Origin: Altererythrobacter sp. Root672
GTDB lineage: Bacteria; Pseudomonadota; Alphaproteobacteria; Sphingomonadales; Sphingomonadaceae
Direction of reading: 5' to 3'
Assembly (NCBI RefSeq): GCF_001427865.1
Contig: NZ_LMHH01000001.1
Coordinates: 2,046,001-2,110,000, forward strand
DNA length: 64,000 nt
Shown here: positions 1,930-54,194 of the stretch, in pieces
Layout: the number at the start of each line of letters is the position of its first letter
How positions within the stretch are numbered: position 1 is the first letter of the stretch
Position numbers and translations under genes: made by a program
Notes under the pieces: generated by a model
Told to the model about the DNA's origin: nothing
Database searches by the model: none
Seen by the model: only the letters and a program-made list of their open reading frames with translations

Positions 1930-3948
1930 ATGTCATTCAAGTCGCGTGCGGCCCTCCTTGCGGGGGCTGCCTTCCTTATGCCGAGTCCGGCGCTCGCTCA
2001 GGCTGAGCAGCCCGAGCCGGAAACCACCGTCTCCACCGTAGAGGACGAAGAGGGCGAGCCCATCATCGTCCAGTCCACCCGCTCGGGCCGCCGTGTTCAG
2101 GACGAGCCCGTGCGGGTCGAGGTGATCAACCAGGAGGAGATTGAGGAAAAGATCCTCATGCGCCCCGGGAATATTGCCACGATCCTCAGCGAGACTGGCG
2201 GTCTGCGCGTGCAGGTCACTGCGCCGGCGCTCGGGTCAGCCAACATCCGCGTGCAGGGGATGGACGGACGGTTCACCCAGCTGCTCGCCGACGGGCTACC
2301 GCTCTATGGCGGGCAGGCCTCTTCGCTGGGCCTGCTGCAGATCCCGCCCACCGATCTCGGCCAGGTCGAAGTGATCAAGGGCGCTGCCTCGGCGCTTTAC
2401 GGCCCTTCCGCCCTGGGCGGGGTCATCAACCTCGTCTCCCGCCGACCGCGCGATGAGGCAGAGGCCGAAGTCCTGCTCAACGCCACGACCCGCAACGGAC
2501 AGGACGTGACCGGCTACGCCGCCACGCCGCTGGGCCCGGACTGGGGCGGTTCGCTCACCGGTGGGTACCACCGCCAGAGCACTCAGGACCTCGACGACGA
2601 TGGCTGGATCGACATGCCGGGCTACGAACGCTGGACCCTGCGCCCGCGCCTGTTCTGGGAGAACGCCGACGGCGCCTCGCTGTTCGTCACCCTCGGCGCC
2701 ATGGCCGAAGAGCGCGTTGGCGGCACCCTGCCAGGCGCGACAGTTCCCGACGGCACGCTCTTCCCGCAGACCCAGGACACCGAGCGGTTCGACATGGGCC
2801 TGGTCGCCGCAATGCCGGTCGAAGGTCTCGGCACGCTTCACCTCCGCGGCTCGGGCATGACGCAGGACCACCAACACCTCTACGGCGAAGTGCTGGAGGA
2901 CGACACGCACGACACCCTGTTCGCCGAGGCCTCGATCTCCGGTGAAAGCGGCGCGACGACCTGGGTCGGCGGGGTGGCGTACCAGGAGGACGGCTTCCGC
3001 TCGGACACCTTCCCCGTGTTCGACTACACCTACCGCGTGCCCGGTCTCTTCGGTCAGGTCGAGCACGAACTCTCGCCCGACCTGACGCTTGCCGGCAGTG
3101 CGCGGGTGGACTTTCACAACGAGTTCGGGACGCAATTCAGTCCGCGCCTGTCGCTGCTCTACAAGCCCGGCCGCTGGACCATCCGCGCTTCCGGCGGGCG
3201 CGGGTTCTATGCCCCGACACCGTTCGTGGAGGAGATCGAGGCGGCGGGCCTGTCTCAACTCGAACCCCTCGGCGACCTGGAAGCCGAGACGGCCACCACG
3301 GGGTCACTCGACGTTGGTTACTCGCGTGGGCCGATTGAAACGAACGTGACGCTGTTCGGGTCCGACCTGCAAGACACGACCCGGCTCGATCCCGTCGCTC
3401 CGGATCGCGTGCAGCTAGTCAACGTCCCGGGGAAGACCCGCATCCGGGGCTCGGAGCTGCTCCTGCGCTATCGTTGGGAGGCGTTCGTGGTGACCGGTAG
3501 TTACGTCTTCGTCGATGCCACCGAGCCCGATCCCTCGGGCACCGGCCGGCGGACCAAGCCGCTGACGCCCAAGCACTCGGCCAGCCTGGTGGCGATGTGG
3601 GAGAAGCACGACAAGGGCCGCCTGGGCCTGGAGATCTACTACACCGGCGAGCAGGCGCTCGACGACAATCCCTATCGGACAGAGGGCAAGCCCTACTTCG
3701 AAGTAGGGCTGCTGGGCGAGATCGTCCTCGGCAAGGCCCGGCTGTTCCTCAATGCCGAGAACATCTTCAACACCCGGCAGACGAAGTACGATCCGCTGAT
3801 CCGCCCGACTCGCGCGCCCGATGGCCGCTGGACCGTCGACGTCTGGGCACCGACCGAGGGCTTCGTTCTCAACGGCGGCGTGCGCTTCAAGTTCGGAGGA
3901 GCGCACCAAAGTCCTTCGACAAGCTCAGGACGAACGGAAATGGAGTAA
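1930..3948 (+). CDS. TonB-dependent outer membrane receptor
   Basis: 672 residues from the ATG at 1930, preceded by AGGAG 10 bp upstream. Residues 1-24 are a signal peptide ending in ALAQ. An N-terminal plug follows (about 40-165) with the TonB-box-like stretch EPIIVQ and the plug hallmarks NIRVQGMDG, VEVIKGAASALYGPSALGG and INLVSRRP; the rest is a 22-strand beta-barrel. It would import a ligand across the outer membrane using TonB/ExbBD. The barrel's last strand ends GGVRFKF, whose terminal Phe is the usual C-terminus recognised by BAM. Here 17 more residues (GGAHQSPSTSSGRTEME) follow, encoded by a REP element that has replaced the original stop. The His-rich protein just upstream suggests a metal or metal-chelate ligand; this is not proven. 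Confidence 0.93.
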   Translation: MSFKSRAALLAGAAFLMPSPALAQAEQPEPETTVSTVEDEEGEPIIVQSTRSGRRVQDEPVRVEVINQEEIEEKILMRPGNIATILSETGGLRVQVTAPALGSANIRVQGMDGRFTQLLADGLPLYGGQASSLGLLQIPPTDLGQVEVIKGAASALYGPSALGGVINLVSRRPRDEAEAEVLLNATTRNGQDVTGYAATPLGPDWGGSLTGGYHRQSTQDLDDDGWIDMPGYERWTLRPRLFWENADGASLFVTLGAMAEERVGGTLPGATVPDGTLFPQTQDTERFDMGLVAAMPVEGLGTLHLRGSGMTQDHQHLYGEVLEDDTHDTLFAEASISGESGATTWVGGVAYQEDGFRSDTFPVFDYTYRVPGLFGQVEHELSPDLTLAGSARVDFHNEFGTQFSPRLSLLYKPGRWTIRASGGRGFYAPTPFVEEIEAAGLSQLEPLGDLEAETATTGSLDVGYSRGPIETNVTLFGSDLQDTTRLDPVAPDRVQLVNVPGKTRIRGSELLLRYRWEAFVVTGSYVFVDATEPDPSGTGRRTKPLTPKHSASLVAMWEKHDKGRLGLEIYYTGEQALDDNPYRTEGKPYFEVGLLGEIVLGKARLFLNAENIFNTRQTKYDPLIRPTRAPDGRWTVDVWAPTEGFVLNGGVRFKFGGAHQSPSTSSGRTEME

Positions 3949-44776: not shown

Positions 44777-44800
44777 GTCCGCAATGGGTGGAAAGCGGAC
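44777..44800 (+). repeat. GTCCGC repeat, copy A (24-bp short form)
   Basis: GTCCGCAATGGGT then GGAAAGCGGAC, 24 bp. Its ends are inverted (GTCCGC/GCGGAC). It matches the two ends of the 95-bp form joined at ATGGGT. A further inverted pair GCGGACTT/AAGTCCGC at 44746-44782 overlaps it. Confidence 0.85.
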
Positions 44801-44806
44801 CTAGGC

Positions 44807-45205
44807 TCAGCGCCTTATGATGCCCTTAGCCAGCGCCGCAGCTTCGCACTGATCTCCCGCAGCACACGGTCCATTGATCTGAAGATAATTCGGCCAATCG
44901 GGCCGCATTCGTGCGACCACACTCCCACGCTCGTTATCACGACGAAGCTTGGCTTCAGGATCTAAAGGTAGCGATAGGATAGACTCTGCACCTTCACCCT
45001 CATCTGGCGCATTGCCTTCGTAGATCACAAACCTCACGCCGTTCCATTCAACGTCGTAGAGATTGAAGTCATGGACTGGCGTTCGCTTGCTGAGCAGGCG
45101 TGCATCAGAAGGAAGGCAGAAGCTTTCGCCACAAGCGCCGCCATCGGTTTCTGGGGAGCAGCTCATTAGCGTCGTCGCGAATAGGAGAGCCAGGAGCCGC
45201 ATCAT
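44807..45205 (-). CDS. Small lipoprotein, unknown function
   Basis: 132 residues from the ATG at 45205, chosen because it gives a lipoprotein signal (MMRLLALLFATTLMSC, Cys16). Cysteines at CGESFCLP and CAAGDQC may form two disulfides. I do not recognise the fold. Repeat copy B lies in its upstream region, 29 bp from the start. Confidence 0.6.
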   Translation of the reverse strand: MMRLLALLFATTLMSCSPETDGGACGESFCLPSDARLLSKRTPVHDFNLYDVEWNGVRFVIYEGNAPDEGEGAESILSLPLDPEAKLRRDNERGSVVARMRPDWPNYLQINGPCAAGDQCEAAALAKGIIRR

Positions 45206-45233
45206 CCGACCAGCATGCCTGAGAACCGGAAGC

Positions 45234-45328
45234 GTCCGCAATGGGTCGTTTGCAGTCGGTCCGCTCCGGAGCGGGTCTCGATCTGCAGTTTTGCCCCTCG
45301 GAATGACCGACATGGGTGGAAAGCGGAC
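45234..45328 (+). repeat. GTCCGC repeat, copy B (95-bp full form)
   Basis: Starts GTCCGCAATGGGTCG and ends ACATGGGTGGAAAGCGGAC. The internal TTTGCAGTCGGTCCGC is shared with copies C, F and G, while the middle diverges. ATGGGT occurs at 45241 and 45312, 71 bp apart. Confidence 0.88.
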
Positions 45329-45355
45329 ATTTGTTCCGATTGTTTCGAGCCTTCC

Positions 45356-45931
45356 TCATCCCCCTTTTGGGAGGCGAAATCGTTCCAAAGCTCGAATGGC
45401 ATCCTCGCGTATTTCCGGAGCCTCAAATCGGCGGTTCCAATCGAAAAAGAGCTGCCACTCCACATCTCGATGGGTGAAAATCATCCCGCAATGATAACGT
45501 CTCTGCCAGCTTTGTGTGTTGCAATAAACGGTGCCTGCCGATGACGGAATTACGGCTAATTCATTGAGTTTTTTGAACTCCGTGTAGAGCTTATGTAGTT
45601 CTGGGTTTGCATGATACGGCCCTGATGGCTGGTAGTATCCTTCATATATCAACCAGTATGAGTTCCTCGATGTCGGCACTGATACGCGATTGCGTTCTAC
45701 GACTTCAGACTCATAGCGTATGTAAGGAGTATCCTTCTGCGGGTTCTCGCGTACGACTCCCTGCTCGAGACGGTTAAGTGTCCGGCCCTCGAAAATGAAC
45801 CCACTTAGATGGTCGCGCGGGAAGCGATACAACGTCCCACCTAACTGAACGTCTACAAACGTCCGACGCTCAGCGCCGCAGCCAGCTGAGAGGCTGAGGA
45901 GTATTAGAACCCATGTCGAATGGCGCAACAC
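45356..45931 (-). CDS. Lipoprotein of lower GC, unknown function
   Basis: 191 residues from the GTG at 45931. Lipobox LSAGC with Cys18. The body is rich in Tyr, Arg and Trp (LGGTLYRFPRDH, YWLIYEGYYQP, SWQRRYHCGMIF), unlike neighbouring proteins, and the gene is visibly poorer in GC than the flanks, suggesting recent acquisition. No family recognised. No strong ribosome site at the start. Confidence 0.6.
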   Translation of the reverse strand: MLRHSTWVLILLSLSAGCGAERRTFVDVQLGGTLYRFPRDHLSGFIFEGRTLNRLEQGVVRENPQKDTPYIRYESEVVERNRVSVPTSRNSYWLIYEGYYQPSGPYHANPELHKLYTEFKKLNELAVIPSSAGTVYCNTQSWQRRYHCGMIFTHRDVEWQLFFDWNRRFEAPEIREDAIRALERFRLPKGG

Positions 45932-46023
45932 TCGGAACTTCTGACAAGATGGAATGCTCTGACTCCCCGCCCGTAGGTGGCTTCTGTGTAATTCTCGGGA
46001 GTTAAGATCGCCCTCACATCAAA

Positions 46024-46118
46024 GTCCGCAATGGGTCGTTTGCAGACGGTCCGCTTTCGAACGAGAGCCGGATCGCGCTTTGGCCGATCGGAATGGCCGA
46101 GATGGGTGGTTAGCGGAC
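46024..46118 (+). repeat. GTCCGC repeat, copy C (95-bp full form)
   Basis: Same length and ends as copy B: GTCCGCAATGGGTCGTTTGC at the left, GATGGGTGGTTAGCGGAC at the right. ATGGGT at 46031 and 46102, again 71 bp apart. It occupies much of the 306-bp gene-free stretch 45932-46237, the rest of which holds the divergent promoters of the flanking lipoprotein genes; nothing else is seen there. Confidence 0.88.
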
Positions 46119-46237
46119 ATTCGCACCCGTAAGAGCGTGCGCGCAACGGTCGCCACATGGGGACGAGGGTAATCCCTGATACCCCTCTACGGGCACCAAC
46201 CATACGGTGAAGCCCGGTCGGGATAAGGAGAGAAGTC

Positions 46238-46567
46238 ATGGTGCTGCGGTTCGCTCTTGGCGCATCAATTGCGCTCGTTCTCGCAGGCTGCCAGACCCCG
46301 CCCCCTGCACCGACTCCCAACCCATCAATCGGCGTCGGCAATCCCTATCCTGTCAGCAATTATCAGTGCGGGAACACCCGTCTCGCCGTGCGCCTGATGG
46401 GTGAGCGGGCGTCGGTGTCGGTTGACGGTGCCGACGCGATCGACCTCCCCGCCAGCGGGTCTTCCGGCACGACCTTTTCGAACGGGCGCCAGACCCTGAT
46501 CATAGAGCAGGGCCGCGTGTCCTGGGGCCTCGGCCGTGCTGTCCCGGTCCCCTGCACGGGCGGCTGA
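46238..46567 (+). CDS. MliC-like lipoprotein (lysozyme inhibitor fold)
   Basis: 109 residues, after an excellent AAGGAG. Lipobox LAGC with Cys18, Pro-rich linker, then a domain with YQCGNTRLAVRLMG, ASVSVDGADAIDLPAS and FSNGRQTLIIEQG, the strand pattern of MliC/PliC inhibitors of C-type lysozyme. Two Cys of the mature domain would form the usual disulfide. The key Ser-Gly of the inhibitory loop appears as GSSGTTFSNG. Likely protects the cell wall against host or environmental lysozyme; inhibition is not shown. Confidence 0.8.
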   Translation: MVLRFALGASIALVLAGCQTPPPAPTPNPSIGVGNPYPVSNYQCGNTRLAVRLMGERASVSVDGADAIDLPASGSSGTTFSNGRQTLIIEQGRVSWGLGRAVPVPCTGG

Positions 46568-46596
46568 ACAGAGGCGAGTTCAGCCGTGGCGCGGAC

Positions 46597-46620
46597 GTCC
46601 GCAATGGGTCGTTAGCGGTC
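46597..46620 (+). repeat. GTCCGC repeat, copy D (24-bp short form)
   Basis: GTCCGCAATGGGTCG then TTAGCGGTC; 24 bp. Its right end resembles that of copy C, and it is preceded by GCGGAC, so the left edge is itself a palindrome GCGGACGTCCGC. It sits between the MliC-like gene and the next membrane protein gene. Confidence 0.75.
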
Positions 46621-46788
46621 TCTTGCGTAACGTGGCACCTACCCGCACTGCACGCGGTGCAGCAGCTTGGGGTTGGCCGGCACCAGCGCCGCCATCGCCG
46701 CGACCACCGAGGCCGTTCTACCGACCTTCGAAACCTGCTTGCGGTCGGTGAAGGCCGGCGTCATTCTGCGCGAACTGGGGGAGGGTTC

Positions 46789-47547
46789 ATGACCGCATCC
46801 GTCGCCGCTGCGACTTTGACGACTGTTGGTAGCCGCTTCAGGCCGTCGTTCTATTTCTGGATGACGCTGGCGATGTGCCTGTTCGTCTTCGCGGGCTTCG
46901 GGCTCCACTCCTTCCTGCCCGCTCTCCAGGGCAATTTTCCGCCGGCGCCGCCGATAGTGCACCTGCACGGCGTGGTGTTCGTCACCTGGATGCTGCTGCT
47001 GTTGACGCAGTCGGCACTGGTGTGCTCCGGGAACGTGAAGCTGCACCGCGCGCTCGGTACCTGGGGCATCGCACAAGGCACCGCGACCATCCTCATCGGC
47101 CTGATGATGCAGCTAATCGCCTCGGGCCGCGGTTATGCCGCCGGGAGACCGGCCGGGACCGACGGGCTCTACCTCGGGCTGCTCGCCTTCCTGGGCTTTG
47201 CCCTGATGTTCGCCTTGGCGATCGGCAACCGGACGAGGCCAGACGTCCATCGCCGGATGATTCTCTTCGCCATGCTGCCCGTCATCCCGCCCGGCGTGAA
47301 CCGCTTCTGGGCCAATGCGCTGGGGCTGGACGATCCGGTGCCGACGTTCTGGCTCTACCTGACGCTGTGGTCGATGGCAGCGGCGATCCTCCTGCAAGAA
47401 CGCCGCACGACCGGCCGCATTGGCGCCTTGTCGCTGCTCGGCGCGGGCTGGATAGTCGCCGAAGGCGCGCTGCACGAAGCGGTGGTCGGCTCACCCGGTT
47501 TCGAGCGTGTCGCCGCCGCAGTTCTGGGGCTGGTCCACTACCGTTAG
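46789..47547 (+). CDS. Multi-pass membrane protein, unknown function
   Basis: 252 residues from the ATG at 46789, after GGGGGAGGG. Seven hydrophobic segments are visible. Conserved-looking pieces are PIVHLHGVVFVTWM in the second loop and NVKLHRALGTWGI before the third segment, each with a His that could bind haem; this pattern resembles membrane-bound cytochrome-like proteins (DUF2306/DUF420 style), a guess only. Its stop overlaps that of the convergent serine hydrolase by 4 bp. Confidence 0.72.
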   Translation: MTASVAAATLTTVGSRFRPSFYFWMTLAMCLFVFAGFGLHSFLPALQGNFPPAPPIVHLHGVVFVTWMLLLLTQSALVCSGNVKLHRALGTWGIAQGTATILIGLMMQLIASGRGYAAGRPAGTDGLYLGLLAFLGFALMFALAIGNRTRPDVHRRMILFAMLPVIPPGVNRFWANALGLDDPVPTFWLYLTLWSMAAAILLQERRTTGRIGALSLLGAGWIVAEGALHEAVVGSPGFERVAAAVLGLVHYR

Positions 47548-49046
47548 CTGCGTGGCCCGCCGGGTGGCACGGGGCGGTAGTTGACCGTCGCGATCGTGCC
47601 GTCCGGAGCGAGCAAGATCGTGTAGACCGCCGCGCCGTTGGCGAACTCGGCGCGATAGGAGTCGAAATCCCCAAGCGTGACTTCCGTGAAAGTCAGGGAG
47701 CGTAGCGGCCCGAGGTCCTTGTATATCTGCTGTAACGTCGGGAGCATGGCGCGCGTCATATCCGCACCCAGCGGCGACATCGTCGAGTAATCGGGAGTCC
47801 CCGCCGCGATGTCCGTGATCATCTTGCGCAACGCGGCCTCGGAGCCCGGCTGTGGCGTGGTCCGCAGCTCAGGCGGCTCGTCGGACGTCAGCGCGGCGAT
47901 GATCCGCCGTTGGATGATCGGAGTCGGCATCGCCTCGCTGTTGGAGATCAAAGCGACGCGCAAGCCGCTGTCGGGCAGCCAGCTCAGCACGCCGCCGAAG
48001 CCGTTTATGCCGCCGCCGTGCGTGATCACGCGTTGACCGTCCAGGCGGTCGATCATCACCCCAAACCCGTAGAGCGCGTCGCCCGGCCCCGTCTTGACCG
48101 GCGAGCCGATCATCTGCTCGAATGAGGCGGGGCTGATCGCACGCCCGTTGGTCAAGGCGATCTGCCAACGCACCAGGTCACCGGCGCTCGAGACCAGTGC
48201 TCCGCCGGCGCCCGGCGTGTTCATGCTGATCGCCGCGTCGTTGGAGTGCGAGAGTGTGTCCGGGTCGAAGGAATAGCCCTGCGCCCGGTGTGGAATAATC
48301 GCGGTCTCCGAGCCGTAGCGCGTGTGCGTCAGGCCGAGCGGCGTAAAGAACTCGTCCTGCATGAACGTGGCGTAGGGCCGGCCGCTCGCCTTGGCGACGA
48401 CCATCCCCAGCAGGTAGTAGTTGGTGTTCGAATAGCGCCAGTTCGTTCCCGGCTCGAAGTCGAACGGCTTGCCGGACACGAGCTGCATCAGCTCGGCGTC
48501 GCTCAGGTTGAGCGGCGACAGCTTCGGGAAGAAGCCGGGTTGCATCGTGTATTCGGGGATGCCCGAGGTGTGGTTGAGCAACTCGCGGATCGTCACCACG
48601 CGGCCGCCGGTGTCGAAATCGGGCACGTATCGGCTCATCGGATCATCGAGGGCGAGCTTGCCCTGCTCCGCAAGCTTCAGGATGGCCGCGGCGGTGAACT
48701 GCTTGGTCATCGAGCCGATGCGGAAAGACGTGCTCGCATCGACCGGCGCGTTCCATTCGAGGTCTGCGATGCCGTAGCCGCGATCCACGATCAGCTGGTC
48801 GCCGCGCGCCACCGCCACCGACAGGCCGACGAACTCTGGGCGGGTCCTGATTTCGTCGATCACTGCGCCGACACGGCGCTCCACCTCGGCATCGCTGAGC
48901 CTGGCGAAGACCTGCGCTTCAGGGGAAGGCGCGGCTTGCTGCGCCTGCAACGACACCTGAGCTTGCGCGGGCAGACTCGCGACCAGAGCGCCGGCCGCCA
49001 GCGCCATCGAGAAACCGCTCACCCTCATCCCAGTCGTCCCCTTCAT
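47544..49046 (-). CDS. Serine hydrolase of the class C beta-lactamase family
   Basis: 500 residues. Signal peptide to about residue 30. The penicillin-recognition motifs are SxxK as Ser112-Met-Thr-Lys115 (IGSMTKQFTA), YxN as YSNTNYYLLG, and a HGG triad in THGGGINGF in place of KTG. A second domain of about 120 residues follows after residue 380. Such proteins are usually esterases or D-aminopeptidases. The start at 49046 overlaps the stop of the gene before it (TGATG). It is the last gene of the blaI-blaR1 operon. Confidence 0.9.
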   Translation of the reverse strand: MKGTTGMRVSGFSMALAAGALVASLPAQAQVSLQAQQAAPSPEAQVFARLSDAEVERRVGAVIDEIRTRPEFVGLSVAVARGDQLIVDRGYGIADLEWNAPVDASTSFRIGSMTKQFTAAAILKLAEQGKLALDDPMSRYVPDFDTGGRVVTIRELLNHTSGIPEYTMQPGFFPKLSPLNLSDAELMQLVSGKPFDFEPGTNWRYSNTNYYLLGMVVAKASGRPYATFMQDEFFTPLGLTHTRYGSETAIIPHRAQGYSFDPDTLSHSNDAAISMNTPGAGGALVSSAGDLVRWQIALTNGRAISPASFEQMIGSPVKTGPGDALYGFGVMIDRLDGQRVITHGGGINGFGGVLSWLPDSGLRVALISNSEAMPTPIIQRRIIAALTSDEPPELRTTPQPGSEAALRKMITDIAAGTPDYSTMSPLGADMTRAMLPTLQQIYKDLGPLRSLTFTEVTLGDFDSYRAEFANGAAVYTILLAPDGTIATVNYRPVPPGGPRS

Positions 49047-50347
49047 CAATCTCGAGCACCACCAGCCGGCCGGGCCAGCGCGATGGCGCGCATTGCGAGC
49101 GCCGTGAGCGCCCCTCTGTCGACGTCCGCAGCGGTGTTATTCCAGCTCAGTGTCACCGCATGCCATTGGCCGGCCTGCTCCTGCAGCAGCCAGCTCAAGT
49201 TGAGCACACCGGGCTCCGATCCGCCCTTGAAGCCGATATACTGCCAGCCCCCGCTCAGGTTATCCGGGACAGAGGTGCTGACCGCCATGATCTCGCGCGC
49301 CGTGGGATCGTCGAGTTCGCGGATGCGGCGCATGAGATTGGCCATGTCCTCGCCCGACACCAGCCATTCGATATCGATGGCTTTGGGTGGGCCGGTGAAG
49401 GTCGTCATGAATTCGAACATGTCGATTTTGCTATCGGCGGTGGCCTTGAGCACGGCTAGGCGACCGGCCGCGTCGGCGGCTCGATAGGCTTCGACATCGC
49501 CATTGACCTTCAGAGCAATCATCTCGCGCGTCGACATGAAGGGAACCAGCAGGGCGGGATCGGAATGTCCCGACGCGGCGACCTCCGCCTCCACTGCGCC
49601 GCGCCCGACGGCCGACAGCAAATTGTCGGTGGCGGTGTTGTCGCTGACCGAGATCATTAGCGTGGCGAGGGTGTGCAGCGTGACCGGCGCCCCCTCCGGC
49701 CAGTCCCTCGAAGCGCCGGAAGGATGGGTTATGGTGGTGATCGGGACGACATCGCCCCAGCTTCGCTTTCCTGCAGCAACTTGGCGGGCGAGCGTGGAAA
49801 GGACGTAGAGCTTGAAGGCAGATCCGATGCCGAGATGCTGGTCGGCATTGTACGACAGCAAAGGCTCGCCACCGTCGAGCGGGGTGACGAGGATCGATGT
49901 TTCGCCCGGCAATGCCTGGATATCGGCCAGCAGCTTCTCGGTGCTGTCATCGGCCGGGGCGACGTTGTTCACGAGAATGCCGGCGACGCGGTAGGGAGGC
50001 TTACCGGCAAGGTTGAACACCCCCGAAGCGATCCCGCGCTCGAACCGGATGGCGATATTCGCAGCGGTTGGCGACGTCGGTTCGACCGATTCCAGCCCAA
50101 CTACCGGGCCGTATTTGCCCTTAGCCTGATCGAAGATCGCGGAAAACTGCTCCTGCGAAACCCGCGAGGTGAAGGCTTCGTCGAACACGTCCGTGTAGAT
50201 CGCCTCTCCCTGCAACACCTCCACGATTTCCCTGGCGCGCTGCTCGACATCCTGTGCGGCGGCGGCAAGGGGCGTGGCGATAAGAACGAGTGCGGCAATG
50301 GCGCGATGAACGACCCCGATCGCGCGCGAGATTCCGACGTCGGTCAC
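49046..50347 (-). CDS. Class A beta-lactamase-like serine hydrolase
   Basis: 433 residues from the GTG at 50347 (GTGA overlap with blaR1). Signal peptide to about 31. An N-terminal domain of about 120 residues resembling a Cpl-7/NTF2-like module is followed by the transpeptidase-like domain: Ser176-Ala-Phe-Lys179 (GSAFKLY), the SDN motif at 235-237 (SVSDNTATDN) and KGG near 373 (GFKGGSEPG) in place of KTG. I see no ExxxN omega-loop motif with the catalytic Glu of true class A enzymes, so efficient penicillin hydrolysis is doubtful. Regulated with its operon by BlaI. Confidence 0.88.
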   Translation of the reverse strand: MTDVGISRAIGVVHRAIAALVLIATPLAAAAQDVEQRAREIVEVLQGEAIYTDVFDEAFTSRVSQEQFSAIFDQAKGKYGPVVGLESVEPTSPTAANIAIRFERGIASGVFNLAGKPPYRVAGILVNNVAPADDSTEKLLADIQALPGETSILVTPLDGGEPLLSYNADQHLGIGSAFKLYVLSTLARQVAAGKRSWGDVVPITTITHPSGASRDWPEGAPVTLHTLATLMISVSDNTATDNLLSAVGRGAVEAEVAASGHSDPALLVPFMSTREMIALKVNGDVEAYRAADAAGRLAVLKATADSKIDMFEFMTTFTGPPKAIDIEWLVSGEDMANLMRRIRELDDPTAREIMAVSTSVPDNLSGGWQYIGFKGGSEPGVLNLSWLLQEQAGQWHAVTLSWNNTAADVDRGALTALAMRAIALARPAGGARD

Positions 50348-51468
50348 TTGGTGACGGGCCCTAAGCCCGCCTCTTGCGCCGATTTCGGCAGGGCATCGGA
50401 CTCGCGGGGCGGTATTCGAAGTTCAAACACGACCACTTCGGCATCGTCGCCTGACGCGAACTGCGCAGAGGCCGAGGAAGCGGCCGCTCTATCGGTGAAC
50501 TGCAAGGTCATCAGCGGCGCCGTCAGGGCGGCCGCGCCGATGGCCATGGCCGCGGCCCAGCTAGTTCCGCTGGCCGACCGGCTCAAGCCGCGGTCGAGCA
50601 CCCGCCGGACACGCTGGGCGAGCGAGTTTCGCGAGGGCGCGACGCCGTGGGCTCCGGACAGCAGGCCGTTGCTGTGCAGTCGGGCGGCGCTGACCAGCAA
50701 GCTCGCATAAACCGTGTCCTCGACGTCCGCGGCCAGCACTGCGTCGTCGGCCGCTTCCTCGCGCAACTGGTGCGCCTCTCGCGCCAACAGCCAGGCAAAG
50801 GGATTGAACCAGAATAACGCCACGCTCACGCGGGCAAGCACCAGCTTGGCCCAGTCCGCCCGCGCGAGGTGTGCCAGCTCGTGCGCCACGATGGCGTCGG
50901 CGTCCGCGGGCGCGTCGACGGCATCGGTGTTGAGTAGGATCTTGGGCCCGTGCACCCCCCAGCTTACCGGAGAGGCGATCTCGTGGCTGGCCAACAATGC
51001 GATGCTCTTTGTGAAACCGATCCGCAGCCGGGCCCGGGCGAGCGCCTGAAGCCAGTGATCGTCGGTCACGGCGCGAGCCCGCGCCGTCAGCAGCACCAGC
51101 CGCAGCAACGCCAGCAGCGTGCGGGCGATGAGGAACAGAGCGATCACGGCATAGGCCAGCAGCAGCCAGTCCGCCGCTGGCTGCGCCCATCCCGGCTCTG
51201 CAACAGGGGTGTGGACCGCAGGCGCGATCGGTGCGGCCCTCGCTGTACCGGAGCTTGCCGTCGCGGCCTCGGCCAGGACAGAGGCGTAGGAGGTCGGCAC
51301 CTCCAGCGGCGGAAACAGCAACGATCCCAGCGGCAGCGCAGCGAGCGCCGCCAAGCCGAGATGCGCGATCCAGCTCCGATCCGAAGCCGAGCGGCCGCGC
51401 ATGAACCGTAGTACCAGCAGGGTTCCGCCGGCGATCACGACCGACTTCGCGGTGAAGAGAACGATCAT
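50344..51468 (-). CDS. blaR1: BlaR1/MecR1-type M56 metallopeptidase
   Basis: 374 residues. Four hydrophobic stretches surround the zinc-binding HELAH (196-200) followed by ARADWAKLVLARVSV and a downstream EEAADDAV Glu. BlaR1 and MecR1 carry an outer penicillin-binding sensor domain that triggers cleavage of BlaI. Here the chain ends about 170 residues after the peptidase site and no such sensor is seen, so the signal must be sensed differently. Start at 51468 overlaps the blaI stop (TGATG). Confidence 0.9.
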   Translation of the reverse strand: MIVLFTAKSVVIAGGTLLVLRFMRGRSASDRSWIAHLGLAALAALPLGSLLFPPLEVPTSYASVLAEAATASSGTARAAPIAPAVHTPVAEPGWAQPAADWLLLAYAVIALFLIARTLLALLRLVLLTARARAVTDDHWLQALARARLRIGFTKSIALLASHEIASPVSWGVHGPKILLNTDAVDAPADADAIVAHELAHLARADWAKLVLARVSVALFWFNPFAWLLAREAHQLREEAADDAVLAADVEDTVYASLLVSAARLHSNGLLSGAHGVAPSRNSLAQRVRRVLDRGLSRSASGTSWAAAMAIGAAALTAPLMTLQFTDRAAASSASAQFASGDDAEVVVFELRIPPRESDALPKSAQEAGLGPVTK

Positions 51469-51854
51469 CACTTGCCCTCCTCGCGTTTGGCGGCGCGGGC
51501 CTGGGCGATCAGCGCTTCAAGCTCGTCGAGCTCGGTCTCGTCGAGCCGATCGGACATGCCGAGCAGCGCTGTCGCGGCGCCCGCGGGGGAGCCGTGGAAG
51601 AACACCCTCACCAGATCCTTGAGCGCGGTCTTGCGCGCCTGGCTATCGGGCACGGCAGGTCGGTAGAGATGGCCTTTCGAGCTCTCGGTGCGGCGAACGA
51701 AGCCCTTGTGCTCGAGCCGGCTGAGCATCGTCCGGATGGCCGAGCCGCTGAGTTGCCCAGGTAGTGCTTCTGAAATCTCCGCCACGGTCAGGTCGCCCCG
51801 CTCGTAGAGCAGGTCGACGATCTCGCGTTCGCGCGGGGGCAACTTCTTCAACAT
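51468..51854 (-). CDS. blaI: BlaI/MecI-family transcriptional repressor
   Basis: 128 residues from the ATG at 51854, after GGAGGGG. Winged helix at about 1-75 with LPPREREIVDLLYERGDLT and AIRTMLSRLEHKGFVRR; dimerisation helices after that. It represses its own operon and is inactivated by the M56 peptidase. The operators overlap its promoter (51874-51902). Confidence 0.94.
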   Translation of the reverse strand: MLKKLPPREREIVDLLYERGDLTVAEISEALPGQLSGSAIRTMLSRLEHKGFVRRTESSKGHLYRPAVPDSQARKTALKDLVRVFFHGSPAGAATALLGMSDRLDETELDELEALIAQARAAKREEGK

Positions 51855-51873
51855 CGGCCCCTCCACCTTCGCT

Positions 51874-51902
51874 GCTACATTTGTAGCGTGCCACATTTGT
51901 AG
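51874..51902 (-). promoter_or_regulatory. Tandem BlaI operators
   Basis: Perfect palindrome GCTACATTTGTAGC (51874-51887), then a second half-copy ACATTTGTAG (51893-51902). Both match the BlaI/MecI operator TACA-N2-TGTA. They lie 20-48 bp before the blaI start, where repression of the promoter is expected. Confidence 0.8.
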
Positions 51903-52099
51903 CGCGTCTGCAATGGGGATTTGGCGCACGTCCTGGACTGCCCATCGACTGCTCTTGGCTAGCGGGTGCGGCTAGTTGGGTGCCCTAGATGGGCGCAGAC
52001 TGGACCAGCAGCGTCTGGCCGAACGCAGACCGTCGGCTTTCGGGTCGGACCAGGCCGAATACCGCCGATCCGCTTTTCACCTCTTCAACTCTTTATGAA

Positions 52100-52123
52100 G
52101 TCCGCAATGGGTGGAAAGCGGAC
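52100..52123 (+). repeat. GTCCGC repeat, copy E (24-bp short form)
   Basis: Identical to copy A over all 24 bp. It lies between the BlaI promoter region and the end of a membrane protein gene. The remainder of the 297-bp gene-free stretch 51855-52151 shows a weak trace of the full repeat near 52023-52048 (GCAGACCGTC) but no gene. Confidence 0.85.
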
Positions 52124-52151
52124 GTTAGCTCGCAAGGTTATCGTGGTCGCC

Positions 52152-52607
52152 TCACACTGCTCCCAAGTCGCCGACGCGCCGCCACCTTAGCCAGACGGCA
52201 GTAATGAGCACTGTCACGCCTCCACCGGCGAGCAGACTGAGGAACACCGCGCGGGCGGGAGGCTCTGGCACAACTCCGCCCGCAACCAGAAACAGCCATG
52301 AAGTCGCGCCGAATATGGTCACGACGAAGCTGACTGCCCAAGCGTCCACGACGATACGACGAAAGACTTCGTCCAACATTCGCAGGGCGAACCGCATTGT
52401 TACTAGCGTCAGCAGTGGGAGCAGAACGGCCCCAGCCACGCCAGCCTCGGGCGTAAAGGGCGGAAATCCGTCGACAGGATCGCGCCTGCCCGACATCAGC
52501 CCGACCATTAATGCGGTCGCCGCGAGAGCGTAAATTCCCTGGAATACCAGCAACCGCTTTTTCGATGCCCTATCTGCGCGAACGCCAGGTCCCTCTGCGT
52601 CAGTCAT
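52152..52607 (-). CDS. Membrane protein paired with an XRE regulator
   Basis: 151 residues from the ATG at 52607, overlapping the regulator stop by 8 bp. Four membrane segments: ALAATALMVGL, AGAVLLPLLTLVTMRFAL, VVTIFGATSWLFLVAG and LLAGGGVTVLITAVWL. This arrangement, a short XRE repressor followed by a small membrane protein, recurs in many bacteria with the membrane protein of unknown role (DUF2178-like). Longer start at 52625 possible. Confidence 0.78.
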   Translation of the reverse strand: MTDAEGPGVRADRASKKRLLVFQGIYALAATALMVGLMSGRRDPVDGFPPFTPEAGVAGAVLLPLLTLVTMRFALRMLDEVFRRIVVDAWAVSFVVTIFGATSWLFLVAGGVVPEPPARAVFLSLLAGGGVTVLITAVWLRWRRVGDLGAV

Positions 52608-52806
52608 GGTCGTCTTTCCCGTCATCGAAAATCTCCTCGATGGGCTGCTTGAACAGCCGAGCAATCTTGAACGCGAGGGGGAGAGAAGGATCGTGCTTGC
52701 CCGATTCGATCGCAATGATGGCGTGGCGCGAAACACCCAGACGCCCGCCAAGCTCGGCCTGGCTCCAGTCTCGCTCCGCTCGCAACACCTTCAATCGGTT
52801 CTTCAC
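52600..52806 (-). CDS. Short XRE-family helix-turn-helix regulator
   Basis: 68 residues from the GTG at 52806. Single HTH: LRAERDWSQAELGGRLGVSRHAIIAIESGKHDPSLPLAFKIARLFKQPIEEIF, the standard HTH_3 pattern with almost nothing else, as in the YozG-type regulators that sit before a membrane protein. A palindrome upstream is a likely operator. Confidence 0.92.
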   Translation of the reverse strand: MKNRLKVLRAERDWSQAELGGRLGVSRHAIIAIESGKHDPSLPLAFKIARLFKQPIEEIFDDGKDDHD

Positions 52807-52842
52807 ACACTCAACTCATGTTACGATTCCCTACCCAAAAGG

Positions 52843-52871
52843 TAGGTATACCTAACATAATAATGTGTCAA
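52843..52871 (-). promoter_or_regulatory. Promoter with palindromic operator for the XRE gene
   Basis: On the minus strand TTGACA (52871-52866) is a perfect -35 element. About 15 bp on, TATACC serves as -10 and lies inside the 12-bp perfect palindrome TAGGTATACCTA (52843-52854). The palindrome is 37 bp before the start, so binding of a repressor there would block the promoter. Confidence 0.65.
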
Positions 52872-52913
52872 CAGTACTCTACTTTATGGTATGTAAACAT
52901 CACATAGAGCTAT

Positions 52914-53007
52914 GTCCGCATTGGGTCTTGTGCAGACAGCCCGCTTTGGGTTGAGCGGCGACTTGCCCTCAAGCCGCACGGAGTTACCGCAACGGCGGAA
53001 GGCAGAC
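52914..53007 (+). repeat. GTCCGC repeat, copy F (94-bp, diverged full form)
   Basis: GTCCGCATTGGGTCTTGTGC on the left, GGCGGAAGGCAGAC on the right; the middle resembles copies B and C only loosely. Length, 94 bp, fits the full form. It shares the 305-bp gap 52807-53111 with the XRE promoter; nothing else is seen there. Confidence 0.65.
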
Positions 53008-53111
53008 GTTAGCATCCGACCCTTTGAAAACACTGCCACGTTCCGAAACTCGCCGCGGTTTCTCACGGGAATAGAAAAAGGGGCTCAGTGTTACTATTCT
53101 TCCGGAACCAC

Positions 53112-53762
53112 TTATCTGGCCCTATTCGCTTCGACGAGGGAATCCCAAGCTGCCCATTCGATAGCGCGTCCAGGATAAGCAACTTTTCCGAATGGCCATT
53201 CTGCTTGCACCCATTTGGTCACCCACTGGTATATTTCGGCGTCGAAGCCCGCGTCATATTCGGCTTTGGTTACCCAGATCGTGACCTCGGCATCGTAGCC
53301 TTCAACGGTACTTGGATGAACGTAAACACACCCACGCTCGCGACGTCCATCCGGGGTCAGTACGGCATAGGCAAATGATTTGCGGTTCTTAAATCTGCCG
53401 TCTTCGGTTTCCATATCTCGCATGGCATCAGCCGCGGATATGTCTTTGTGAGGCCAGTCGGTGCTGCGAGTGAAAGTCTTCTGCAGGTGTTCGATGGATG
53501 ACATGTAGGCGGCAAAATCAAGATCCACCAATTCGGGCCCTAATGGCACGATTTTGAAGCCGGCCGTTTCAACCAGTATCGGAACACTAAAATCCGCCGG
53601 GACGAATGACGATACTGGTCCTGCTTCGGACATCACTACGGGCGCAGTTTCTGTGACCTCCGCCGCGGTTGTGCTTGACGCAGTTTCCTCCGCCAAGGCC
53701 GGTGAGTGGGCCATGGTTAGAACCGCCAAAGTTAGACCTGCGCCGGTGATCCTCAGTTTCAA
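53112..53762 (-). CDS. Secreted protein resembling GNAT acetyltransferases
   Basis: 216 residues from the TTG at 53762, supported by AGGGAG 8 bp upstream and a signal peptide (MKLRITGAGLTLAVLTMAHS, cleavage after ALA). The core has DFAAYMSSIEHLQKTF, KSFAYAVLTPDGRRERGCVY and WVTKWVQAEWPF, the pattern of a GNAT-type acetyltransferase family normally found in the cytoplasm. With a signal peptide it would lack acetyl-CoA, so it may have another ligand. GC is lower than the flanks. Function unknown. Confidence 0.65.
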   Translation of the reverse strand: MKLRITGAGLTLAVLTMAHSPALAEETASSTTAAEVTETAPVVMSEAGPVSSFVPADFSVPILVETAGFKIVPLGPELVDLDFAAYMSSIEHLQKTFTRSTDWPHKDISAADAMRDMETEDGRFKNRKSFAYAVLTPDGRRERGCVYVHPSTVEGYDAEVTIWVTKAEYDAGFDAEIYQWVTKWVQAEWPFGKVAYPGRAIEWAAWDSLVEANRAR

Positions 53763-53841
53763 TCTGCTTACTCCCTGAGACTGAGCGGCCTCCGCAGCGC
53801 ACGGGCGCGGGGTCAGGTCGCGGACCGGTTAACGCAATCGA

Positions 53842-53958
53842 TTATTCGGCAGGTACGGCGGTGTGCGTCTGCTGCTGGCGCCGTTGGAAGAAGGCCTTGG
53901 CCGGCTTACAACGGATAGTCATCGCCTCGTGGATCGACATCTTCCGTCCACCTTCCAT
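53842..53958 (-). pseudogene. Possible remnant of a small protein gene
   Basis: On the minus strand 38 codons from the ATG at 53958 to the TAA at 53842 are open, and the frame stays open to a TAG at 54031. The sequence (starts MEGGRKMSIHEAMTIRCKPA, ends TAVPAE) has normal protein-like composition, and the open codons before it (DPTFGTRVNGEPELLG) do too, but no start is available for them. It looks like the 3' end of a gene that has lost its front. The rest of the 432-bp gap 53763-54194 holds only repeat copy G. Confidence 0.35.
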
Positions 53959-54101
53959 GCCCAGCAGTTCAGGCTCGCCATTGACGCGTGTGCCGAACGT
54001 CGGGTCGATGATGGTCCAACATGGCGCACGCTACGATGCCTGGCGGCAGACTATCGATATTAACAAACGCGTCAAGCGTAATAATGCCAGCGCCATCAAG
54101 T

Positions 54102-54137
54102 GTCCGCAGTGGGTCGTTTGCAGACCGCCCGCTCTTA
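54102..54137 (+). repeat. GTCCGC repeat, copy G (left half only)
   Basis: GTCCGCAGTGGGTCGTTTGC then AGACCGCCCGCTC matches the left part of copies B and C; no right end with GCGGAC follows within 120 bp, so the copy is truncated. It lies 58 bp beyond the stop of the FAD oxidoreductase gene. Confidence 0.6.
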
Positions 54138-54194
54138 CCCACGATATAACTGCCTTCTCAGCATTGATGCCGTCCGTAGAGTTTTCGAGCAGAG

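Follow-up and report, generated by a model that had tools for sequence, protein, structure and literature searches.

Co-oriented repeats in an Altererythrobacter genome are probably recombination sites bounding exchangeable gene cassettes

Within a 64,000-nucleotide stretch of the genome of Altererythrobacter sp. Root672 (contig NZ_LMHH01000001.1, positions 2,046,001 to 2,110,000; referred to as the window), a short repeat with inverted ends recurs at seven places between rnhA and a gene for a flavin adenine dinucleotide (FAD) oxidoreductase, raising the question of what kind of element this repeat is. From sequence comparison, it is probable that the repeats are conservative site-specific recombination sites, which bound exchangeable gene cassettes and on which a small recombinase, or a substitute for it, would act.

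A position weight matrix (PWM) of 35 columns, trained on 155 instances from other genomes, revealed nine 24-bp units at seven places in the window, all in plus orientation and all within 44777-54125. No unit was found elsewhere in the window, and two mononucleotide shuffles per threshold also gave none. A preceding sequence-only reading had described a co-oriented, intergenic, mobile-looking repeat family with inverted ends, restricted to seven copies in this part of the window; this description was confirmed, and each copy was found in the window sequence where it had been placed. Its division into 95-bp and truncated forms was only partly retained. Both forms are present, but the 95-bp form consists of two direct 24-bp units 71 bp apart, the copy at 52914-53007 has only its first unit above the PWM threshold, and the copy at 54102 described as truncated comprises a complete unit and 12 bp more. 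The short consensus GTCCGCAATGGGT, when allowed three mismatches, was found at chance level (25 occurrences against 23.1 expected), so that the significance of the family rests on the exact and longer forms.

Rfam gave no match in the window, and BLAST gave no matches either, whether to plasmids (searched with one 95-bp copy) or to phages (searched with another). A role as intrinsic terminator was rejected, with one of the nine units (46024-46047) being terminator-like and the region giving 10 matches against 7.0 expected. Folding as single-stranded DNA was strong for the perfect 36-mer (z -8.1) and moderate for the 24-mer (z -3.8); among five 95-bp stretches, one was near background (z -0.5) and the others ranged from z -1.5 to -3.0. 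Because these stretches fold weakly to near background, a hairpin-substrate reading is not claimed.

In the complete set of five contigs (3.69 Mb), 69 sites matched the 24-bp pattern with no more than two mismatches, and 30 exact copies of GTCCGCWWTGGGT were found; the reversed controls gave none in either case. The five genus relatives (G001 to G005) contained 0, 1, 10, 24 and 22 sites, respectively, with 0, 1, 0, 2 and 0 in the reversed controls. The sequence-only reading had allowed that the family might fail by lacking genome-wide over-representation or by being alike in GTCCGC only. The family stands on both counts, since the 69 sites face none in the reversed control and conservation of the motif extends from about -5 to +29 and not beyond. 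The consensus of 156 instances reads CKAAT-GTCCGC-WWT-GGGTSG-AAA-GCGGAC-ATTMGC, where the letters between GTCCGC and GCRGAC were mostly fixed by the search pattern and the free evidence lies in the flanks and the W, S and A positions. The base before GTCCGC was T in 72% and C in 16% of the instances. The letters bordering the site are inverted (AAT..ATT) and form no direct duplication.

The site can be summarised as AATGTCCGCWWT-GGGTSG-AAAGCGGACATT, with inverted arms around an asymmetric 6-bp core. Each site would thereby offer two arms of about 12 bp and a directional core, in which strand exchange would excise or insert, as a circle, everything between two co-oriented sites. A cassette would consist of a right half-site, a gene and a left half-site.

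The repeats had also been taken for a REP-like unit, that is, a repetitive extragenic palindrome (REP) copied by a REP-associated tyrosine transposase (RAYT); miniature inverted-repeat transposable elements derived from insertion sequences are a related idea. Short, palindromic, mostly intergenic units in many copies would suit either element. Yet the flanks beyond the site are unconserved, the bordering letters are inverted instead of directly duplicated, and the halves of one site go with different flanks, so that the units do not behave as moving units. The proposed check for a RAYT gave no match to Y1_Tnp (PF01797) in the Root672 genome, while 5 of 14 control genomes matched. Since no RAYT was found, since site halves go with different cassettes and since the breakpoints described below fit the central 6 bp, the REP-like reading was rejected; the idea of miniature elements was set aside only in part, and the two readings together are very improbable.

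A pattern scan with one genome per species gave at least 120 matches in many Proteobacteria. Among the matches listed were Sphingomonas and relatives, Brevundimonas, Phenylobacterium, Caulobacter, Lysobacter, Dyella, Frateuria and Massilia, as well as several other gammaproteobacteria and a few metagenome-assembled genomes (MAGs) labelled Nitrospinae, Nitrospirota or Caldithrix. The distribution of the site is patchy, as the exact pattern occurred in only 9 of 398 genomes of a drawn proteobacterial sample.

The spacing within the 95-bp form was regular. All 15 close same-orientation pairs in the window and in the fetched stretches of the Root672 genome were spaced 70-72 bp, which makes a 71-bp mini-cassette without open reading frame (ORF), together with its two sites, the best reading of the 95-bp repeat, the 24-bp form being a site without the mini-cassette. 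In the 24-bp form GTCCGCAATGGGTGGAAAGCGGAC, the left half is that of the first unit and the right half that of the second. As a separate observation, the mini-cassette with its two sites (45234-45328, 46024-46118, 52914-53007) is itself amplified. Other lineages have different recurring close spacings (35-37, 59 and 82-83), some of them between opposite units.

The order of sites and genes was analysed in 128 loci from viral and genome collections, two of which were too short to be scored. The remaining 126 contained 325 sites, 17 of which overlap a called gene. Consecutive sites up to 1.5 kb apart, from 68 loci of other genomes, were in the same orientation in 132 cases and in opposite orientation in 11, with a median gap of 577 bp; for these counts close doubles were collapsed, and the stretches had been picked because they hold sites. 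By locus, 62 of the 68 had a same-orientation majority and two an opposite one. The ratio of same to opposite was 22:3 in the fetched stretches of the Root672 genome outside the window and 25:0 in those of the genus relatives.

For a census of intervals, 28 array-rich loci were selected, comprising 144 intervals and 142 genes called by a custom codon-usage script, not a standard gene finder. One gene was present in 95 of the intervals, none in 28, and two or three in 21. The genes were mostly antiparallel to the sites (115 of 142, the other 27 being parallel), with a median length of 122 aa. Pfam assigned 65 families to the 142 proteins, the commonest (Barstar) occurring in only three; by these family counts, a Pfam match is possible for no more than about half of the proteins. 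GNAT families, alpha/beta hydrolase and glyoxalase were found twice each, and single Arr-ms, beta-lactamase, SRAP and DUF matches were among those listed. PADLOC returned two weak matches for the array proteins.

To what extent cassettes end at the sites is seen from copies shared between loci. High-scoring segment pairs (HSPs) of at least 180 bp between distinct loci had 263 internal ends, a set that includes allelic flanks and is diluted by them; for 15 of these ends a site centre lay 25 bp away or less in both loci (null 0.05%), and for 39 this was so in at least one locus (null 3.9%). The clearest case is a 397-bp cassette present at two G005 loci in 97% identical form between unrelated flanks, spanning from GGGTGG to the AATGGGTCG of the next site. 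Cassette copies within one genome were also found in Root672 (L234, 10574-10894 and 15161-15413) and in S. rhizophila (L289, 1418-1775 and 12637-12994).

The point of exchange was bounded by comparing 508 sites for pairs with homology extending 6-125 bp beyond the site on one side and little on the other. Thirteen pairs from nine cassette families shared one flank only (seven left, six right), and none shared both. Core letters 9-14 were identical in all 13 pairs, including the variable S, at which random pairs differ in 46%. This mismatch rate is the sole use made of a looser set of 134 pairs (53 left-only, 80 right-only, one both), which was dominated by shared mini-cassette spacers among the matches listed. 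In six of the seven left-sharing pairs, the first mismatch on the unshared side follows directly after the core, and in the seventh it is three bases further; in five of the six right-sharing pairs, the last such mismatch lies 1-3 bases before the core, and the sixth has none in the arm. On these sequence alignments, all 13 bounds are compatible with exchange in the 6-bp core, as for a tyrosine recombinase.

It was considered whether the repeats could be dispersed palindromes without a dedicated enzyme, the cassettes being moved by homologous or short-homology recombination. At 24-95 bp the repeats could provide such homology, and no small recombinase was found in this genus. Scattered palindromes would, however, not be expected to be co-oriented (132:11) or to hold one gene per interval, and all 13 one-sided pairs fit a break in the 6-bp core with arm variants going with their flanks, which makes this explanation quite improbable. 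Site-specific recombination is the simplest cause of the sites, arrays, cassette copies and breakpoint bounds together.

A candidate enzyme was found upon searching the loci with a profile built from resident tyrosine recombinases. Of its five matches, three belong to a family of about 200 aa encoded beside sites in Sphingomonas (L065, L113) and Dyella (L126), with 55-69% mutual identity; the other two are a truncated integron integrase (L176) and a phage-like fragment, as judged by eye, far from a site (L177). The small enzyme matches Pfam PF00589 at 5.9e-20 and passes no NCBIfam cut-off. In 20 sequences R58, K86, R158, H181 and Y190 are invariant and H155 is conserved in at least 90%, giving the full R-K-H-R-H-Y set. 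A structure model from the 20 sequences had a mean pLDDT (predicted local distance difference test) of 82.4, while that from three sequences was unusable (46.8). The predicted fold was compared with XerA (Z 19.2 over 164 residues, root-mean-square deviation 2.5 A) and Cre (Z about 17.5); the alignment begins near residue 19 of the small enzyme and covers only the catalytic part of the two references, beginning at 101 in XerA and at about 131 in Cre. By motif and predicted fold, it qualifies as a tyrosine recombinase reduced to the catalytic domain.

At an identity of at least 52%, the small enzyme was detected in 14 of 39 chosen genomes, 5 of them among the 14 genomes of the same taxonomic family outside the genus. 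A site lies within 1.5 kb at 10 of 14 loci of the enzyme family (9 of 14 at threshold 20), two of these (L254, L262) being discovery loci again. No such site was found at the loci of other tyrosine recombinases, namely 16 weaker, mostly XerC/D-like matches, 12 in array genomes and 30 in the genus, bar the integron-integrase gene of L176. Among 20 family loci selected for the presence of a site, nine are flanked on both sides by sites within 1 kb. These flanking sites were inverted in all nine, although neighbours elsewhere are co-oriented 132:11, placing a polarity flip at the recombinase gene; in one of the nine the sites are all weak, and one gene contains an in-frame stop. Such a flip is seen in S. 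sediminicola, with 10 sites to the left of the gene, all in minus orientation, and seven to the right, all in plus (threshold 12). Dyella sp. OK004 has a run of 17 co-oriented sites from which the recombinase gene faces away, and of the 14 called genes in that run 13 point away from the recombinase gene. In a recombinase tree the site-associated members did not form one clade, requiring eight changes for 13 labelled rows of 42, a number reached in only 6 of 500 shuffles, in a tree weakened by two long-branched rows and by the score threshold (L255 counted as 'none'). A repeat search around the recombinase in three site-less genomes and four loci of the phylum sample, judged by eye, gave no other array-like repeat family.

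Several further observations concern the same gene. At L298 (G447), one of these four loci of the phylum sample, duplicated stretches (1225-1391 and 3019-3198) surround the recombinase gene, and one copy holds a GTCCGC-type site. In four loci from the viral collection (L362, L363, L364, L378), which may be proviral or host flanks, an antiparallel site follows 25-136 bp after the recombinase match. Plasmid records matching the small enzyme at E<=1e-5 numbered 1465, many surely being other tyrosine recombinases; 487 covered at least 80% of it, and among the best 30 of the 487 are Pseudomonas, Cupriavidus, Paraburkholderia and Sinorhizobium, with no annotation beyond 'tyrosine-type recombinase/integrase' or none whatever.

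As judged from these sequences, the small enzyme is likely the acting recombinase. Alternatively, sites and cassettes may be real and be worked by XerC/XerD or another resident tyrosine recombinase, the small enzyme being a frequent passenger. Two XerC/XerD-like genes, by score and length, are the only tyrosine recombinases common to all six genus genomes, and another enzyme may move the G005 cassettes, because the recent duplication there occurred without the small enzyme; in Dyella, moreover, the small gene is followed by an antiparallel site, as is a cassette gene. This alternative is nevertheless rather unlikely in view of the polarity flip in nine of nine loci, the lack of sites near the other recombinase genes examined, L176 aside, and a site apparently unlike dif. 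Under the preferred reading, in which a small recombinase would perform the exchange, the enzyme of this genus would be lost, incoming or replaced by a substitute such as XerC/D, and the cassettes would travel as circles.

The sites and genes of the window are listed in Table 1.

Table 1. Putative recombination sites, cassette genes and modules of the array between rnhA and the FAD oxidoreductase gene; scores are from the PWM scan
Feature	Position	Orientation	Remarks
Site, core GGGTGG	44777..44800	+	PWM 39.8; left edge of the array, 53 bp past the rnhA stop
Cassette gene, 131-132 aa	44807..45205	-	Lipoprotein-like start MRLLALLFATTLMSCSP (lipobox by eye); ends before the next site
Double site	45234..45328	+	Units 45234-45257 (GGGTCG, PWM 21.4) and 45305-45328 (GGGTGG, PWM 30.1) around 71-bp mini-cassette without ORF
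Cassette ORF, low GC content, no Pfam match	45356..45931	-	Between the double sites at 45234 and 46024; missed by the coding-potential caller
Double site around mini-cassette	46024..46118	+	Units 46024-46047 (PWM 32.4) and 46095-46118 (PWM 26.6)
Cassette gene, 109 aa	46238..46567	+	Lipoprotein-like by eye, no Pfam match; parallel to the sites (minority orientation)
Site, core GGGTCG	46597..46620	+	PWM 31.0; left edge of module A; right flank common with a G005 site, left flank not
Module A	46621..47557	+	Gene 46789-47547 (no Pfam match); sharp right boundary 47556/47557
Module B	47557..51999	-	BlaI-type repressor, peptidase with HELAH motif, two serine-hydrolase genes
Site, core GGGTGG	52100..52123	+	PWM 43.4; left edge of module D; homology with paralogous cassette begins at its GGGTGG
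Module D	52152..52806	-	Membrane-type protein 52152-52625 (no Pfam match) and XRE regulator 52600-52806
Diverged double site with mini-cassette	52914..53007	+	Passing unit 52914-52937, PWM 20.0
Cassette gene E	53112..53714	-	Weak GNAT match, below the Pfam cut-off
Last site (54102-54125) and 12 bp of mini-cassette	54102..54137	+	PWM 24.6

The cluster had been said to coincide with an accessory stretch, and this is confirmed by the flanking genes lying near each other in four of five genus relatives. The distance between the matched stretches of rnhA and of the FAD oxidoreductase gene is 1247 bp in G001, 294 in G002, 264 in G003 and 736 in G005, as compared with 9.4 kb here; in the draft G004 the two genes are on different contigs. 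The core-genome flank appears to resume at 54138, where a 10-bp match with the G005 flank is seen by eye, and BLAST homology starts from 54191. In the corresponding gap of G005, there is one clear site, one degenerate site (by eye) and a different small insert.

The modules recur elsewhere. Module A (46592-47557) is present at other loci in G003, G004 and G005. Module B (47557-51999) is intact at another G005 locus, with a site near its right end, and split over two G004 contigs, where the pieces show only a site-like string, read by eye; its peptidase gave a weak BlaR1 match, below cut-off. Module D (52109-52904) has a copy of 75% identity in the Root672 genome itself, bounded by sites at G000:C1:1806055 and 1806964, and another copy lies between sites in G004. 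A homologue of gene E is found elsewhere in G003 without a recognised site. The longer ORF 44807-45313 had no Pfam match, and the gene 44807..45205 was missed by the coding-potential caller. The junction of modules A and B is a sharp homology boundary in five comparisons, the site there being degenerate at best. Two short pieces, 53910-54018 (about 110 bp) and 46641-46712 (about 70 bp), recur at other loci of the genus and are not part of the site family. On the preferred reading, the array in the window is of this kind but lacks its recombinase. Because the small recombinase was not found here, this array would be either an orphan fed from elsewhere or worked by another enzyme.

Several results weigh against the interpretation as recombination sites served by the small enzyme. 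At the locus itself, G001 has a called gene in the gap between rnhA and the FAD oxidoreductase gene without any site, and a clear site is missing at one end of some modules (at the A|B junction, for E in G003 and for B in G004). With allelic flanks included, 224 of the 263 internal HSP ends are not near a site. The 13 one-sided pairs represent no more than nine cassette families; what each gives is a bound on the breakpoint, and an uncounted number of pairs with intermediate flank identity was set aside. Four left-sharing pairs differ on the shared side too (at positions 3, 6, 8 or 5-7), and two right-sharing pairs differ after the core (16, 18); such shared-side differences would be expected of diverged copies. 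The small enzyme is present in only 9 of 19 array genomes and in none of the six genus genomes, although G005 has the 97% identical duplicated cassette. Across the 398 genomes no co-occurrence was seen, the enzyme being found in 1 of 9 genomes with the exact site and in 69 of 389 without it; of 30 enzyme loci fetched from this sample, three had clear sites and one a weak one. As the enzyme was not found in the genus and does not co-occur with the site across the 398 genomes, we can only infer its role. Finally, at L176 (a Pseudoxanthomonas MAG) a truncated IntI gene lies 265 bp from a site; this ORF (479-1279, site at 1544) scored 259.5 of 265 bits, just under cut-off, over profile positions 2-236 of 315.

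Taken more broadly, the balance of the sequence data leans towards a second, integron-independent cassette platform, consisting of a FimB-sized tyrosine recombinase and 12-6-12 GGGTSG sites in Alpha-, Beta- and Gammaproteobacteria, orphan arrays included. Such a platform would capture, store and shuffle mostly unknown small genes, occasionally of resistance or toxin-inhibitor type, and its arrays may store adaptive genes. A search of the open literature, with subscription papers and preprints mostly outside its scope, gave no description of the site, the enzyme motif or the system. If the proposal is true, cassette capture would have had more than one origin, the second platform having its own site geometry and a minimal recombinase. 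It would explain the repeat family as well as a common 'tyrosine-type recombinase/integrase' without assigned function, and would make a large reservoir of unknown small genes accessible.

Site-specific capture of genes into cassette arrays is classically exemplified by integrons. The arrays described here resemble integrons (IntI/attC, including integrase-less clusters) in having co-oriented sites, commonly with one small gene per site (132:11; 95 of 144 intervals), in carrying much cargo without Pfam family, and in the Dyella sp. OK004 recombinase gene facing away from its 17-site run. They could, accordingly, be degenerate integron cassette arrays, that is, attC clusters without integrase, a view to which the shared array logic, the Barstar, GNAT, glyoxalase and Arr cargo, the L176 gene and a full IntI in Dyella silvatica lend some support. 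However, the IntI profile TIGR02249 exceeded its cut-off in that species only among 21 array genomes, to which L176 does not belong, leaving 20 without, the Root672 genome among them; the consensus lacks the attC-type boxes GTTRRRY/RYYYAAC; and the breakpoints fit the centre of the palindrome instead of an end box, so that each cassette would carry two half-sites. Degenerate integrons are thus a very unlikely explanation. The arrays read as a separate platform differ further in that some Sphingomonas arrays lie on both sides of the recombinase, and in the catalytic-domain-only enzyme. In Dyella silvatica (L182, G453) one and the same genome has IntI above cut-off as well as these arrays, and the two systems may coexist there.

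In pdif modules, genes are bounded by short tyrosine-recombinase core sites, which occur as inverted pairs. Gene modules between putative core sites are also seen here, whereas the present site is apparently unrelated to dif, the arrays are co-oriented, and they are found largely on chromosome-sized contigs. The XerC/XerD modules of Acinetobacter plasmids are the subject of two papers (PMC6449649, PMC7399989). With Cre/loxP, XerH/difH and XerA-type systems, the small enzyme has in common a predicted fold matching their catalytic domains, and the site its inverted arms with a directional spacer; it differs in comprising the catalytic part only and in falling below all NCBIfam cut-offs. Similar in size are two profiles of 198 and 200 aa, which bear the library name tyrosine-type DNA invertases and which we take to be of FimB/FimE type. 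The match to such invertases was weak (33.5 bits against a cut-off of 222), and instead of their one invertible switch the sites considered here form co-oriented arrays.

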